A DNA stretch of 64,000 nucleotides, from contig NZ_SMRU01000005.1 of assembly GCF_004354015.1 (NCBI RefSeq), positions 1 through 64,000 of the forward strand, given 5' to 3'. A program made the position numbers and the translations under genes. Origin of the DNA: Arthrobacter terricola. Lineage in GTDB: Bacteria; Actinomycetota; Actinomycetes; Actinomycetales; Micrococcaceae. A model generated the notes under the pieces. The model had not been told where the DNA came from and searched no databases. It was given only the letters and a program-made list of their open reading frames with translations. Below, in pieces: positions 17,324-21,190 of the stretch (its first letter is position 1; every line of letters starts with the position of its first letter).

Positions 17324-17659
17324 TAGTATGTTTTTACGTTTGTTTCGTGGAAGATGTCACGCAAACACATGCAACCTGGCCACGCGCGCCGTATAGCGGC
17401 GGAGCCGCCGCGAAGCCAAGTCCACACCAAGAGGTCCCCGCCTGATCATTCGGAGAGTGGCCTCGCTTCGCTTCTTACCACCCTGGTAACGGGATGAGTG
17501 GAGTTGAGCCTGGCGCCTCTCAAACCCAGTGAGTCGCGCCGATCAACACTCAATTCCGGTGCAACAAGCACTCAATTCCCGCAAACGGCCACCTAACGGC
17601 GATTCATGCGCCTAGGTTCGTACCCGAGGAGAGCCCTCCTCTCGTATGAAAGGAAACCG
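17324..17659. other. Intergenic region between the inositol transporter promoter and the bacteriocin precursor
   Basis: About 335 nt with no gene. It holds a direct repeat CACTCAATTCC at 17547-17557 and 17569-17579 (22 bp apart, two helical turns), a spacing used by some activators. I see no convincing -35/-10 pair. This stretch marks the left edge of the lower-GC block. Confidence 0.45.
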
Positions 17660-17956
17660 GTGTCAACATTTATTGAGAGTCGCAAACGTACCAACAGTTC
17701 GTATCCTGAGAGGATTACGAAAATGGGAGGAGTCGCCGCGGCATTTTTCATTTCAGTGTCCGTCGCTTTTCAAGCCACTGCAACTTTGGGGATTTCTTCT
17801 GCGCTCGCCTCAAATCTGTACTTCGCCCTCAACTTCCTCTCATGGGCGGCCGCAGCTGCGGCGGTTGTGGCATCTTTCGGCATTGGAGCGGCGGTAGCTG
17901 GCCTGGTATTTGGACTTGCCAAGAGATGGGCTCTCAGGCAATTTGTCGCATGGTAA
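17660..17956 (+). CDS. Circular bacteriocin precursor, AS-48/uberolysin-like (candidate)
   Basis: A 98-residue peptide. The GTG start at 17660 has AAGGAA 5 nt upstream; a shorter start is ATG 17723. A basic leader plus hydrophobic stretch (about 1-39) precedes a very hydrophobic core of about 58-60 residues, beginning near TATLGISSALA and ending RWALRQFVAW. The core has no Cys, has small/aliphatic helices and a basic C-terminal helix, and ends in Trp. It parallels enterocin AS-48, which has FGIPAAVAG near its start, a mid-peptide TAVGSGG and ends AVIAW; here these are LGISSALAS, VASFGIGAA and FVAW. Such cores are cut from the leader and joined head to tail. The four genes downstream match the makeup of circular-bacteriocin operons. 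The cleavage site is not certain. Confidence 0.8.
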   Translation: MSTFIESRKRTNSSYPERITKMGGVAAAFFISVSVAFQATATLGISSALASNLYFALNFLSWAAAAAAVVASFGIGAAVAGLVFGLAKRWALRQFVAW

Positions 17957-17992
17957 GCCGCTAGCGCCTGGGTGCAACTGGAGGGGGCTGCA

Positions 17993-19390
17993 ATGAATTC
18001 ATCTGAATCTAAGCCAAAGACTCAATGCATACGGGCTGTGGTCCTCTCCGGATGCAAGGCAACTTTCATCAATGACTTTCGGCGTAAGTCCCATCGCATG
18101 CAGGACCTCCTCAAGAGTTTGGGGTTTTCACCCGATCCGGAGAAAGTCAATTGGTTTTTGATCTTTGGACGTCTTTTGACGGCGTTAATCATTGCCGTCG
18201 GCATATTATGGGCACCTCAACGGACAGCGCTCAACACCTTCGGAATTCCGCTCAGCATTCCAGACGCTGTGAGCATCATGGCGGCACTACAGGCCATTGG
18301 TCTTCTATTTGCGAGACGGCGCTTCAGGCGAGCCCATCGCTGCTGGCAGACCGTGTCGGCGCCACTTGAAGCCGGGATGCGCGCGGGTTTGGTCCTTACG
18401 GATCTTGGCTTTGCCGGGATGCTCATCCTTCAGAACCTGCGGTGGCACGAAGGTGGAAATTTATTTGCCGTAGGCGCGCTCGTGATCTCATCGTTTCTTC
18501 TCGTGGCACCCCAGAAGACCAACGCGATCCGCACGTATGTTCTTTTGGTTGTCGTCTCCTCTGCGGGCACCTTGCTTTTCTTGATTGGGAATACATTGTG
18601 GTTTGACGGCCATGACCCCTTGGGCTCCGGCCCAGCATCGACGTTGTTCGTGATATTGGCCGGGACTGTTCTTATCACCGTTTCCACCCCCGCTCTCTAC
18701 AGGGTCACGGCTCATCCCCGGGCCCTACGTAGTCGAGGGGTTCTGGTTGATTTATCAATCAAGGCAGCGAGCATTTTTATACTGGCATCCCTAGTCCTGC
18801 TGACTGCGGAAGTGACACCGTGGCCACGGACCGCGCCCTTTATTGCCGTAGCTGTTTTCTTTTCCGGCTTGGTTGTGTTTCGCTCATCACTGACACGGAT
18901 CACTTCGCCTGAGACATTTGGTCTTGCACTGTTCCTCGTACGGCTTAAACCGTCCTGGGTAAAGCCGATCATTTTCCGCAGCGTCGTAACCGCAATGGTA
19001 GTAGTCACGCCCTTGACCTTCGTACTGTGCGCATTCTTGCTTCTGAAAAACTACACCCACGTGGTGGTCCTACTTGGCGCTCTCGTTGCTGTCGAGATTG
19101 GTGTCGATGCCCTTATCATCCAGCGCCGGACGGCAGTCTTGCCTGCCTCGCATATCTCGAAACTGCCCCAGAAATCCAAGGCGGGCTTCGGCGCAGCGCT
19201 CTGCGCCGGGTTCGCAGTTGTCCTGTCAGGAATCTTGGGAACTGTTACACAGCAAGCAATACAAATTCCCTGGCTTCCCCTTGCGGCGGGCGGAATGGCT
19301 CTTGTGGCTATTCTCTTGACATCCCTTGTCATCAAAGATGCGCCTCAATGGCTGGGTGAACTTTCAGCAACCGAAACGGAGGACACATGA
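17993..19390 (+). CDS. Multi-spanning membrane protein of the bacteriocin operon (AS-48B/BacB-like role)
   Basis: A 465-residue protein with about 12 hydrophobic spans and a 45-residue hydrophilic N-terminus. No enzyme motif is visible. In known circular-bacteriocin operons the gene after the precursor encodes a membrane protein of about 450-560 residues (As-48B, CclB and others) required for maturation or export; size, topology and position agree. ATG 17993 has GGAGGG 7 nt upstream and lies 36 nt after the precursor. The stop overlaps the start of the ATPase gene (ATGA). Codon use is less GC-biased than in the flanking inositol genes, supporting acquisition by transfer. Assignment of role is by context. 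Confidence 0.75.
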   Translation: MNSSESKPKTQCIRAVVLSGCKATFINDFRRKSHRMQDLLKSLGFSPDPEKVNWFLIFGRLLTALIIAVGILWAPQRTALNTFGIPLSIPDAVSIMAALQAIGLLFARRRFRRAHRCWQTVSAPLEAGMRAGLVLTDLGFAGMLILQNLRWHEGGNLFAVGALVISSFLLVAPQKTNAIRTYVLLVVVSSAGTLLFLIGNTLWFDGHDPLGSGPASTLFVILAGTVLITVSTPALYRVTAHPRALRSRGVLVDLSIKAASIFILASLVLLTAEVTPWPRTAPFIAVAVFFSGLVVFRSSLTRITSPETFGLALFLVRLKPSWVKPIIFRSVVTAMVVVTPLTFVLCAFLLLKNYTHVVVLLGALVAVEIGVDALIIQRRTAVLPASHISKLPQKSKAGFGAALCAGFAVVLSGILGTVTQQAIQIPWLPLAAGGMALVAILLTSLVIKDAPQWLGELSATETEDT

Positions 19391-19989
19391 CGTCTCTAGC
19401 ACGTGTAGATCATGCCTATGGATCCCACATCATTTTTGAAGGAGCCTCTATAGATTTTCCGGACCGCGGCGTTGTCGCGCTTCGAGGGCCGAACGGATGC
19501 GGCAAAACGACCCTACTCAAGCTCCTCGGTGGGGTGATCTCAAGTTCATCCAAGGAAGTTGAGCGGTGGAGACAGGACTTCCGCGCAGTCTACCTGGACG
19601 CGGATTTTCTTACCCTCGACTACCTTACGGTCGAAGAACAATTGAGCATGGTCAGGCCGTTGACTAACCCTCCGAACTTCCCGAAAGGTGAGGGATGTCT
19701 TCTGGCGGGACATATGATGCCAGCCAAGGTAGGAGCGCTATCGCTCGGCCAGCGCCAGCGACTTGTTTTGTCTGTGGCCCTGACGCTCAAGAACGTCGAT
19801 GTCCTACTTCTTGACGAGCCGCTGAATGGACTAGACCAGCATGCCGCTCTCATTGCACGCAAGTCCATTCTCAGCGCAGGTAAAAGCCGACTGGTCCTAG
19901 TTGCAACCCACGAGGATGAGCGCTGGACCGATTACGAGCTCGTAATACGCTCCCGTGATGCGCTCGAACTAAGCCCAACGGGCGTGTGA
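19387..19989 (+). CDS. ABC transporter ATP-binding protein of the bacteriocin operon
   Basis: A 200-residue ATPase: Walker A GPNGCGKTT (about 35-43), a Q-loop-type region before LDYLTVEEQLSM, signature LSLGQRQRL, Walker B VDVLLLDEPLNGLD and switch histidine in VATHEDE. It is close to the minimum length for one ABC domain, as for the BacD/As-48D-type ATPases of circular-bacteriocin operons. It overlaps both neighbours by 4 nt and probably pairs with one or more of the membrane proteins for export or self-protection. Confidence 0.9.
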   Translation: MTSLARVDHAYGSHIIFEGASIDFPDRGVVALRGPNGCGKTTLLKLLGGVISSSSKEVERWRQDFRAVYLDADFLTLDYLTVEEQLSMVRPLTNPPNFPKGEGCLLAGHMMPAKVGALSLGQRQRLVLSVALTLKNVDVLLLDEPLNGLDQHAALIARKSILSAGKSRLVLVATHEDERWTDYELVIRSRDALELSPTGV

Positions 19990-20534
19990 GGGTGAGAAAT
20001 CGCCATGCGCTGACTGTTTGCTCTCCGCTCATGGCCTTCTTGAGCTCGCACTTCCCCTGTTTGTGTCATGACTTCCTGAGAATACTGGCTGCGCTTGCTG
20101 GTGGGGTCGGTCTAGCTTCGCTCTTTACGTGGGGCGGAAGCAGTGAAGTTGGCGCTATCAGCGCGGCAAGGATACTTCTGCACAACGCGACCCTGGCTCT
20201 TCTTGCGTTATTCCTGACCCACTATGGCGCGGTGGCCATGATGATGCTCAACGGATTTTGGCTCGGCATGGGCCTTGTTGCAAGTACAGCCGCCGTTGGC
20301 CTCCATACAACGTTTTCGCTGACCGTGGTCCATGTTCCACTCGAGATCGCAGCGTGGGCAATGACAATCCAAGGGGCACGGCTATTCTGGCCAACATTTC
20401 TCGCAACGGTCAGAAAAGAACGGTCCTGGCTCCATTTGGTTCAGAAAATGGGCGCCGTCCTCGCTCCAGCGACCATCTTCTATATTCTTGCGGCCCTTGC
20501 TGAGTGGGCCGAACATGCACTAGCTGAGAGGTAA
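19986..20534 (+). CDS. SpoIIM/DUF95-family membrane protein of the bacteriocin operon
   Basis: A 182-residue protein with four to five hydrophobic spans. DUF95/SpoIIM hallmarks are visible: a conserved Asn in the helix ILLHNATLALLA, then LNGFWLGMGL, then HVPLEIAAWAMTIQGARLF (family: PHGxxE followed by AG). DUF95 proteins (As-48C, CclD, BacC) occur in essentially all known circular-bacteriocin operons, so this gene is strong support for the reading of the cluster. The start is GTG 19986 overlapping the ATPase stop (GTGA); an alternative is ATG 20031. The next gene begins 3 nt after its stop. Confidence 0.8.
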   Translation: MRVRNRHALTVCSPLMAFLSSHFPCLCHDFLRILAALAGGVGLASLFTWGGSSEVGAISAARILLHNATLALLALFLTHYGAVAMMMLNGFWLGMGLVASTAAVGLHTTFSLTVVHVPLEIAAWAMTIQGARLFWPTFLATVRKERSWLHLVQKMGAVLAPATIFYILAALAEWAEHALAER

Positions 20535-20537
20535 CTC

Positions 20538-21101
20538 ATGATCCCTGCGGCCCCAAGCGTTCCCGATCCCTCGCCACCGCATGGCCTGAGAGAGATCAGC
20601 CCGGCGTGGATAACCTTCCTCCTCCTCGCCTACACGGCCTCGGCCCAGTTCGCGGTGGGAACGGAAATTGATCGACTAGTCACCGATAATGCCGAACATA
20701 ACCGGTTTTCAAGCCAGGAAGTGCTGCTTACCTTTGTTCGCTTGAGTGTCATTGCCTGGGGCATTCTGGCGTCTTTTCTGCAAGCACTCGTCCTGAGGCT
20801 CATTTACATGGGCATCGTCAAAGGACCGGCCCCCACGCTCAGATTCAGCTGGTTCTGGGTGCTTCTAGGTCAAATCCCTTTTATCGCGACTGTCATCGTC
20901 ATGGGATTGTTCTTGCAGCCGGAAGCGACCGGTCTCCTCGGTCAAGCCTGGATACGGATCCTATTCGGCACTATAGCCGCCGCAATCTATATTGCGGCCG
21001 CCAAGAAACTATTCGTCGCCCCGATGGGGCGACTAGCAGTTCTCTTCGTCGTCGTGGTTGTCGTCAACTCAATTCTGCTCGTTTCCGGTAGCTCTGCCTG
21101 A
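20538..21101 (+). CDS. Membrane protein at the end of the bacteriocin operon, possible immunity or transport partner
   Basis: A 187-residue protein with four or five transmembrane helices (for example WITFLLLAYTASAQFAV, SVIAWGILASFLQALVL, FWVLLGQIPFIATVIVMGLFL and LAVLFVVVVVVNSILLV) and a Pro-rich N-terminus. ATG 20538 follows GAGAGG. No short basic immunity peptide of the usual type is visible in the block, so this protein is a candidate for self-protection, alone or with the ATPase; it could equally be a permease partner. I recognise no family. Confidence 0.65.
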   Translation: MIPAAPSVPDPSPPHGLREISPAWITFLLLAYTASAQFAVGTEIDRLVTDNAEHNRFSSQEVLLTFVRLSVIAWGILASFLQALVLRLIYMGIVKGPAPTLRFSWFWVLLGQIPFIATVIVMGLFLQPEATGLLGQAWIRILFGTIAAAIYIAAAKKLFVAPMGRLAVLFVVVVVVNSILLVSGSSA

Positions 21102-21120
21102 AACGATTTTGCGCTCCCGA

Positions 21121-21190
21121 CCCGAGTTTGTGTACAGAAAACACCCCTTAAGAGCGTTCTTAAGAGGTGTTTTCTGTACACAAACTCGGG
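21121..21190. repeat. Long palindromic intergenic element, copy 2 (GAGTTTGTGTACA family)
   Basis: Inverted repeat with 35-nt arms (21121-21155 and 21156-21190), two mismatches and virtually no loop. The outer CCCGAGTTTGTGTACA and the inner TTAAGAGC are shared in plan with the copy at 11859-11926; the middle differs. It separates the rightward bacteriocin operon from the leftward inositol operon and probably terminates both. Confidence 0.85.

Follow-up and report, generated by a model that had tools for sequence, protein, structure and literature searches.

A five-gene operon at positions 17660-21101 of a 64,000-nucleotide stretch of Arthrobacter terricola DNA (NCBI RefSeq assembly GCF_004354015.1, contig NZ_SMRU01000005.1, positions 1 to 64,000; the window from here on) is assigned to the circular (head-to-tail cyclised) bacteriocins, as a divergent new group near subgroup i, with a probability of about 0.88. 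Directly observed are the content and order of the genes, the relatedness of the product of gene A to circular bacteriocins, the membership of proteins D and C in the SpoIIM and ATP-binding cassette (ABC) families, the conservation of the set and a series of decayed copies. The curated models miss the window precursor, whose link to the class rests on relatives and profiles. An initial annotation, made by a model from the letters alone, had proposed an operon of overlapping or nearly overlapping genes, headed by a 98-residue precursor with a hydrophobic, Cys-free core ending in Trp; the open reading frames (ORFs), their overlaps and order and the core composition bear this out, and the set recurs in other genomes. 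The genes and the predicted parts of the precursor are the following:

17660..17956, plus strand: gene A, probable bacteriocin precursor, 98 aa, GTG start; ORF with relatives at loci L007, L009 and L010
17660..17773, plus strand: predicted leader, 38 aa, with a hydrophobic stretch; predicted boundary
17774..17953, plus strand: predicted mature core, 60 aa, ATATLGISS...RQFVAW
17993..19390, plus strand: gene B, large membrane protein, 465 aa, about 11-13 spans; candidate for maturation or export
19387..19989, plus strand: gene C, ABC-type ATPase, 200 aa; PF00005 at an expect value (E) of 1.1e-14, above the cut-off
19986..20534, plus strand: gene D, SpoIIM/DUF95-like membrane protein, 182 aa; PF01944 the sole Pfam match in four of four orthologues
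20538..21101, plus strand: gene E, membrane protein, 187 aa, immunity candidate; whole in six genus genomes

Operon structure and gene starts

All five frames, A to E, lie on the plus strand as one tight operon, in which B and C, and likewise C and D, overlap by 4 nt, while gaps of 36 nt and 3 nt separate A from B and D from E. An alternative in-frame ATG for A at 17606 is an unlikely start, because the L007 relative has its ATG aligned with the window GTG at 17660. In the case of B, the frame listed initially (472 aa, from a GTG at 17972) is probably too long: an ATG at the position of window 17993 is shared by all four genus relatives that have B, for which reason this ATG, giving 465 aa, is preferred, and the listed B frame of Propionibacterium cyclohexanicum starts with ATG likewise. 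The twelve membrane spans first ascribed to this protein agree with the approximately 11-13 hydrophobic stretches counted; only its start had to be moved. The operon is not a chance arrangement, since its gene set and order recur in other genomes and A varies mostly at silent sites, the proportions of nonsynonymous and synonymous differences between the window copy and three relatives being 0.15-0.25 and 0.70-0.80, respectively. Its guanine-plus-cytosine (GC) content is 55.2%, compared with 63.5% for the window.

The precursor and known circular bacteriocins

The product of A has the features of circular-bacteriocin precursors, namely an N-terminal leader, as far as the predicted boundary goes, and a hydrophobic, cationic core within the class range of about 58-70 aa, with no Cys, no Asp or Glu and three Lys or Arg residues. 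The leader is predicted to end at Q38|A39, possibly off by 1-2 residues, because residue 1 of enterocin NKR-5-3B aligns there and conservation jumps at that point: identity to the L007 relative is 19/37 in the leader and 54/60 in the core, and to that of L009 15/38 and 47/60. Provided that this boundary is correct, the cyclic core would have a monoisotopic mass of 6080.30. A mature peptide of about 58-60 residues ending in FVAW had been anticipated, in agreement with the 60 aa, ending in RQFVAW, predicted here.

A search of the PDB (177,635 distinct sequences) with a profile of four precursors gave enterocin NKR-5-3B as the sole match at E<=10; query positions 40-98 align with its residues 2-64 out of 64, at an E of 2.4 that is weak on its own. 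The window precursor alone had no PDB match at this threshold. In global alignment, the 60-aa core paired with NKR-5-3B end to end at a z-score (z) of 6.4, with 23/60 identical residues and with none of 2000 shuffles or 54 rotations as good; the L007 and L009 cores gave z 6.6 and 5.9. NKR-5-3B (PDB 2mp8, subgroup i) and the window core both carry LGISS close to their start and terminate in AW. It differs in having a core of 64 rather than 60 aa and a leader of 23 rather than 38 aa, a length read off a related 87-aa precursor in L034, and the window type is actinobacterial. This likeness covers the precursor only, and the two plasmid gene tables concerned, which are incomplete, list no partner proteins.

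A further link is given by the precursor family of a second locus in the same genome, described below, which includes a member above the PF09221 cut-off (24.3 vs 23.6 bits). Profile-profile comparison with hhalign related the two families at 88% probability (pairwise E 2.9e-6) over 40 columns in register, with a score of 34.2 that none of 200 column shuffles attained (best, 23.4). With hmmsearch, the second-locus profile scored the full precursors of the window and of L009 higher than every one of 3000 shuffled cores, and that of L007 lower than one of them, a comparison of full precursors with shuffled cores and so not strictly of like with like. Precursor A1, set against single AS-48 and NKR-like precursors, gave probabilities of 4.9% and 2.3%, the NKR-like one being aligned end to end. 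Among the curated models, TIGR03651 is weakly matched by three of the four family precursors (E 0.024, 0.2 and 1.6), that of the window not among them, and PF16942 ('putative cyclic bacteriocin') matches L007 (E 1.3) and L009 (E 0.58) below its curated cut-off.

Partner proteins

Protein C is an ABC ATPase, as first described, and supplies the ATP-binding protein which, according to the accessible part of PMC8534725, occurs in all reported clusters together with the precursor and a DUF95 protein. The latter, whose gene is class-defining for circular clusters in the available text of PMC11580447, appears to be represented by the D family, below the gathering score. In fact, the four D orthologues match PF01944 with E 0.13 (window), 0.01, 0.0038 and 6.8e-6 (L009), the window copy over model positions 39-158 of 163 and the others from positions 4-12 to 158, and the best of them (26.6 bits) falls 0.3 short of the gathering score of 26.9. 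The proposal that the product starting at 19986 would match a DUF95/SpoIIM model thus stands for the family, at these sub-threshold scores, and least well for the window copy. Protein B has the position and approximate size of the large membrane protein of known clusters, yet is not detectably similar in sequence to that of AS-48; for B and E no credible family was found among the Pfam and other curated models searched. A PADLOC scan of B, D and E returned only a chance-like match, and A, B and E were without match in a plasmid collection.

The AS-48 cluster (plasmid pPD1, L035) shares with the window operon a precursor, a large membrane protein, a SpoIIM protein and an ABC ATPase, the order being A-B-SpoIIM-ATPase in the former and A-B-ATPase-SpoIIM in the latter; its further ABC transporter genes and small ORFs are absent from the window operon. 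The original description of the operon as AS-48-like holds only in a broad sense, NKR-5-3B being the nearer relative.

A second circular-bacteriocin operon in the genome

A search of the genome itself with PF01944 recovered a 333-aa frame above the cut-off, a 186-aa protein on another contig (C14) and a weak match in an apparent ABC permease. Directly before the C14 SpoIIM gene (E 3.2e-4, 21.1 bits, below the cut-off) lies a 92-aa precursor which passes PF09221 (24.3 vs 23.6 bits, E 3.5e-5) and matches TIGR03651 under its cut-off (E 2.3e-4). In the PDB, its top matches are AS-48 and NKR-5-3B (E 0.010-0.017), ahead of unrelated proteins at 0.06. The SpoIIM gene is followed by what appear to be two small membrane proteins, then by a membrane protein of 511 aa and an ABC ATPase, the operon extending over G000:C14:45071-49137 (L049 5572-9638). 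Both operons of the genome thus have a precursor followed by SpoIIM, membrane proteins and an ABC ATPase, with related precursor profiles. They differ in gene order, in the precursor end (AQAVA at C14, FVAW in the window) and in that only the C14 precursor passes PF09221; their other proteins, where compared, are not detectably similar.

Precursors of the C14 type were matched (E<=0.01) in 26/189 genus genomes, 20 of them, the own genome included, at E<1e-9; the other six matches are weak and unchecked. Among 20 loci examined (one per genome), eighteen have similarity to the C14 SpoIIM beside the precursor, three over 64-79 residues only and one split between frames; of the remaining two, one ends with its contig and the other has none. 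This second type is present in all six genomes with a full-length E, against 20/189 overall; the chance of this would be 7e-7 under an independence of genomes that does not hold. At L065-L070, loci of genus genomes, two further-looking precursor types were seen, GMFGLSS...KRAAVA and SLGISTAAASQI...KAIAIA, which share 43-56% identity with the second type and have similarity to its SpoIIM downstream, partial in three.

Results weighing against the assignment, and a possible linear alternative

Several results weigh against a circular bacteriocin. The curated cut-offs are not reached: PF09221, the model suggested at the outset as a check, and TIGR03651 gave no match to the window precursor at E<=10, in searches where HMMER filters remove most matches above about 0.1; its relatives score 9.1-16.5 bits with TIGR03651 against a cut-off of 30.7, and the full precursors of L009 and L010 score better with an unrelated model. 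Similarity to other known members is lower than to NKR-5-3B, the window core giving z 3.75 with AS-48 (1/2000 shuffles and 1/54 rotations as good), z 3.3 with the Listeria relative of AS-48 and z 1.3 with a carnocyclin A fragment (223/2000 shuffles as good). The structure prediction suggested at the outset was uninformative: AlphaFold2, run on five sequences and without a known circular bacteriocin as control, modelled the core as one 58-residue helix (predicted template modelling score 0.40) and not as a bundle; for B it gave a low-confidence model (mean predicted local distance difference test score 54), and both models were too poor for a fold search. As for the partner proteins, D of the window itself scores 12.6 bits against the cut-off of 26.9. 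B shows no detectable similarity to the AS-48 B protein (hhalign 0.4%, with thin profiles) or to the large membrane protein of the second locus, D none to the AS-48 SpoIIM in a thin comparison or to its second-locus counterpart (8/100 shuffles as good), and E none to its own counterpart there. Moreover, the operon gaps are too small for a separate immunity gene of the usual small, cationic and hydrophobic type, a search in which ORFs below 60 aa elsewhere were not included.

Some of these observations would suit a linear helical bacteriocin, either of the aureocin A53 kind or with a leader, that leaves the cell through an ABC system with no ring closure. Members of that class are similar in size, charge and helical make-up, and B is unlike the AS-48 B protein. 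Nevertheless, this explanation is unlikely, because the operon contains a SpoIIM/DUF95 gene, which the available text of PMC11580447 treats as defining circular clusters, the match to NKR-5-3B reaches both mature ends, and a 38-aa, less conserved leader precedes the core; leaderless bacteriocins of the aureocin A53 kind have neither a leader nor SpoIIM, unlike the window operon. The circular assignment, first made in the initial annotation, is hence retained, supported by SpoIIM in the D family, the 88% hhalign link and the end-to-end match to NKR-5-3B.

Distribution and novelty

Within the genus, D is matched in 6/198 genomes, near full length in the own genome, G106, G043 and G096 and as C-terminal stubs in G051 and G045. 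The precursor profile matches in 6/196: fully or nearly so in the own genome, G106, G051 and G096, and as a 15-residue remnant in G043, the sixth match (G178) being rejected as chance, given that its locus resembles part of an ordinary membrane protein. E is found in 8/196, six of them full (own, G045, G043, G106, G051 and G096), together with a 60-residue remnant in G111 and a weak match in G089.

Outside the genus, a family-wide search (245 genomes) returned the own genome only, and a class-wide search with the precursor profile (394 genomes) gave no convincing match outside it, five weak, partial matches (E 0.001-0.007) at loci left unread being taken as chance. The class-wide search with the B profile, in which at most four candidates per genome were scored, gave three weak N-terminal matches elsewhere, and the own genome showed a second weak match besides its B; the match at L043 was rejected, as the locus has small membrane proteins which by eye are DUF202-like. 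A scan of 84,980 species genomes with two peptide patterns yielded 143 stretches, of which three were confirmed, in Arthrobacter bambusae, Paenarthrobacter nicotinovorans and Propionibacterium cyclohexanicum, the first two loci being taken as belonging to genomes already in the genus set.

The belief, voiced in the initial annotation, that the described circular bacteriocins come from Firmicutes proved mistaken. The accessible text of PMC10456417 describes an AS-48-like cluster of ten genes in Arthrobacter sp. APC 3897, that of PMC8534725 has 6,928 precursors, 2 of them actinobacterial, and the second type reported here occurs in 20/189 genus genomes. With a precursor 71.3% identical to AS-48, the APC 3897 cluster is considered to belong to another lineage than the window type, a conclusion reached from that figure rather than by comparing the sequence itself. 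In the available portion of PMC11679952, no circular-bacteriocin cluster is reported in Arthrobacter, and the window type was not found described in the literature on circular, cyclic or head-to-tail cyclized bacteriocins and Arthrobacter, a search in which most papers were judged by title and which mostly left out subscription journals. As far as this search reaches, the idea of a distant, probably undescribed branch agrees with the divergence seen. By the grouping at >50% similarity given in the accessible part of PMC8534725, the window type is probably a new group. Since its precursor falls below the cut-offs of both curated models tried, mining by those models alone would miss it.

Apparent mobility, decay and the candidate immunity gene

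The window-type operon is intact in two other genus genomes (G106 and G096) and decayed in three. In four genomes (G106, G043, G051 and G045) the operon or its remnant occupies one chromosomal site, bordered, as judged by eye, by a holA-like gene and rpsT; the flanking pieces share 80-94% identity. At this site A to E are whole in G106; A carries an internal deletion in G043; in G051 a change in the last codon of A replaces the C-terminal Trp and extends the frame by a few residues, and D is a stub; in G045, A, B, C and most of D are lost and E is kept as an open frame of 187 codons. The window and G096 operons lie at sites other than this one. Furthermore, nucleotide similarity between L007 and the window (9001-30000 compared) runs from 17673 to 21103, the operon only, and L007 and L009 have only pieces of the operon in common. 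In Propionibacterium cyclohexanicum (L033 8001-12632), A lacks its 5' half and is followed by B (24% identity), C (48%) and E (30%), D being absent, since C and E overlap; a further ABC ATPase and a permease come after.

The operon was thus apparently acquired horizontally, and the plainest reading of the series is a horizontally moving bacteriocin set in which the killing gene is lost first and the candidate immunity gene E last. Of the five genes, E alone is intact at each of the seven loci (six genus genomes and P. cyclohexanicum), which makes it the best immunity candidate, and it is probably the self-protection gene. B-C may add to protection, because they are kept beside E in P. cyclohexanicum and G051. 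For comparison, the accessible text of PMC6131525 reports that an ABC transporter confers partial immunity in the NKR-5-3B cluster. Against the reading of E as an immunity gene lost last, the series consists of four related species at one site, the altered last codon of A in G051 might stem from a sequencing error, and G111 (L024) keeps only a 60-codon C-terminal fragment of E, the 3.2 kb searched there having nothing that credibly matches A-D. The ratio of nonsynonymous to synonymous substitution rates of E, orphan against relatives (0.19-0.36), fits recent selection and does not prove it.

In most carriers the set could also be an immunity or 'cheater' island, A being intact in the window by chance only. 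Of the other five genus carriers, three have in fact lost A or have it deleted in part or altered; with every one of the five frames open in the window and strong constraint on A across the window, L007 and L009, this is very improbable. A peptide without bacteriocin function, acting with an ABC/SpoIIM complex in the cell envelope, would find some support in the existence of housekeeping SpoIIM members, one of them in the 333-aa frame of this genome, and in the single long helix modelled for the core, and is the hardest to credit, as A is related to circular bacteriocins and the operon, with full-length E in only 6/196 genus genomes (own included), low GC and differing sites, is unlike a housekeeping set. 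Returning to the circular bacteriocin, a wider proposal can be put forward tentatively, at slightly less than even odds: Arthrobacter would hold its own radiation of circular bacteriocins, with two differently built operons in one genome, the window type being mobile, landing at different sites and decaying in a set order, from the killing gene to the 187-aa immunity gene, to leave resistant non-producers.

Proposed mechanism

From gene content and published clusters we infer the processing site, ring closure, export route, killing and immunity as follows. A would be translated as an inactive 98-aa precursor, whose 38-aa leader would be removed by a protease outside the operon, none being encoded in it. 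B, C and D, acting as a membrane complex, would then link the new N-terminus, probably A39, with the C-terminal Trp, ring closure being most probably due to B, with or without the other two. The ring would leave the cell by ABC-type transport driven by C, for which D, B or both would form the membrane part. D is assigned to export with C because, in the accessible text of PMC6131525 and PMC7132975, a leucocyclicin Q cluster deprived of DUF95 retains the mature ring within the cell, an indication of a role in export. Once outside, the cationic, hydrophobic helical ring may permeabilise the membranes of related Gram-positive soil bacteria, the producer being protected by E. According to the same two sources, as far as available, the biosynthetic proteins are without peptidase domain and the ring-closing step is not understood, and the available part of PMC8659200 notes peptidase genes in a few clusters. 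A five-gene set without recognisable peptidase bears on which protein closes the ring. Furthermore, the operon yields a precise predicted peptide and a candidate immunity gene for testing.

Flanking features

The neighbouring genes, judged by eye from their translations, resemble sugar-transport genes upstream and sugar-isomerase and catabolic genes downstream. Two repeat structures flank the operon:

17547..17581, plus strand: two direct repeats CACTCAATTCCsG, 22 nt apart, upstream of A
21121..21190, no strand assigned: inverted repeat, 33 nt, 97% complementary, 4-nt loop, after E and before a convergent sugar-isomerase-like gene

The inverted repeat is a possible two-way terminator; it is not among the calls of a consensus terminator scan. 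Direct repeats of CACTCAAwTyCGG (<=2 mismatches), in two or three copies at 21-22 nt steps, precede five of the six window-type operons or remnants examined (window, L007, L008, L010 and L011; L009 is without them), and within the window alone the motif count is not above chance (3 found, a number reached in 28/100 shuffles). These repeats appear to resemble the multiple end repeats of some insertion sequences. The same repeats, on the opposite strand, also precede the second locus of the genome (L049 5207-5241). A role of the upstream 22-nt repeats as a common switch of both operons was considered and rejected, as among 20 second-type loci such a pair is present only at that of the source genome.

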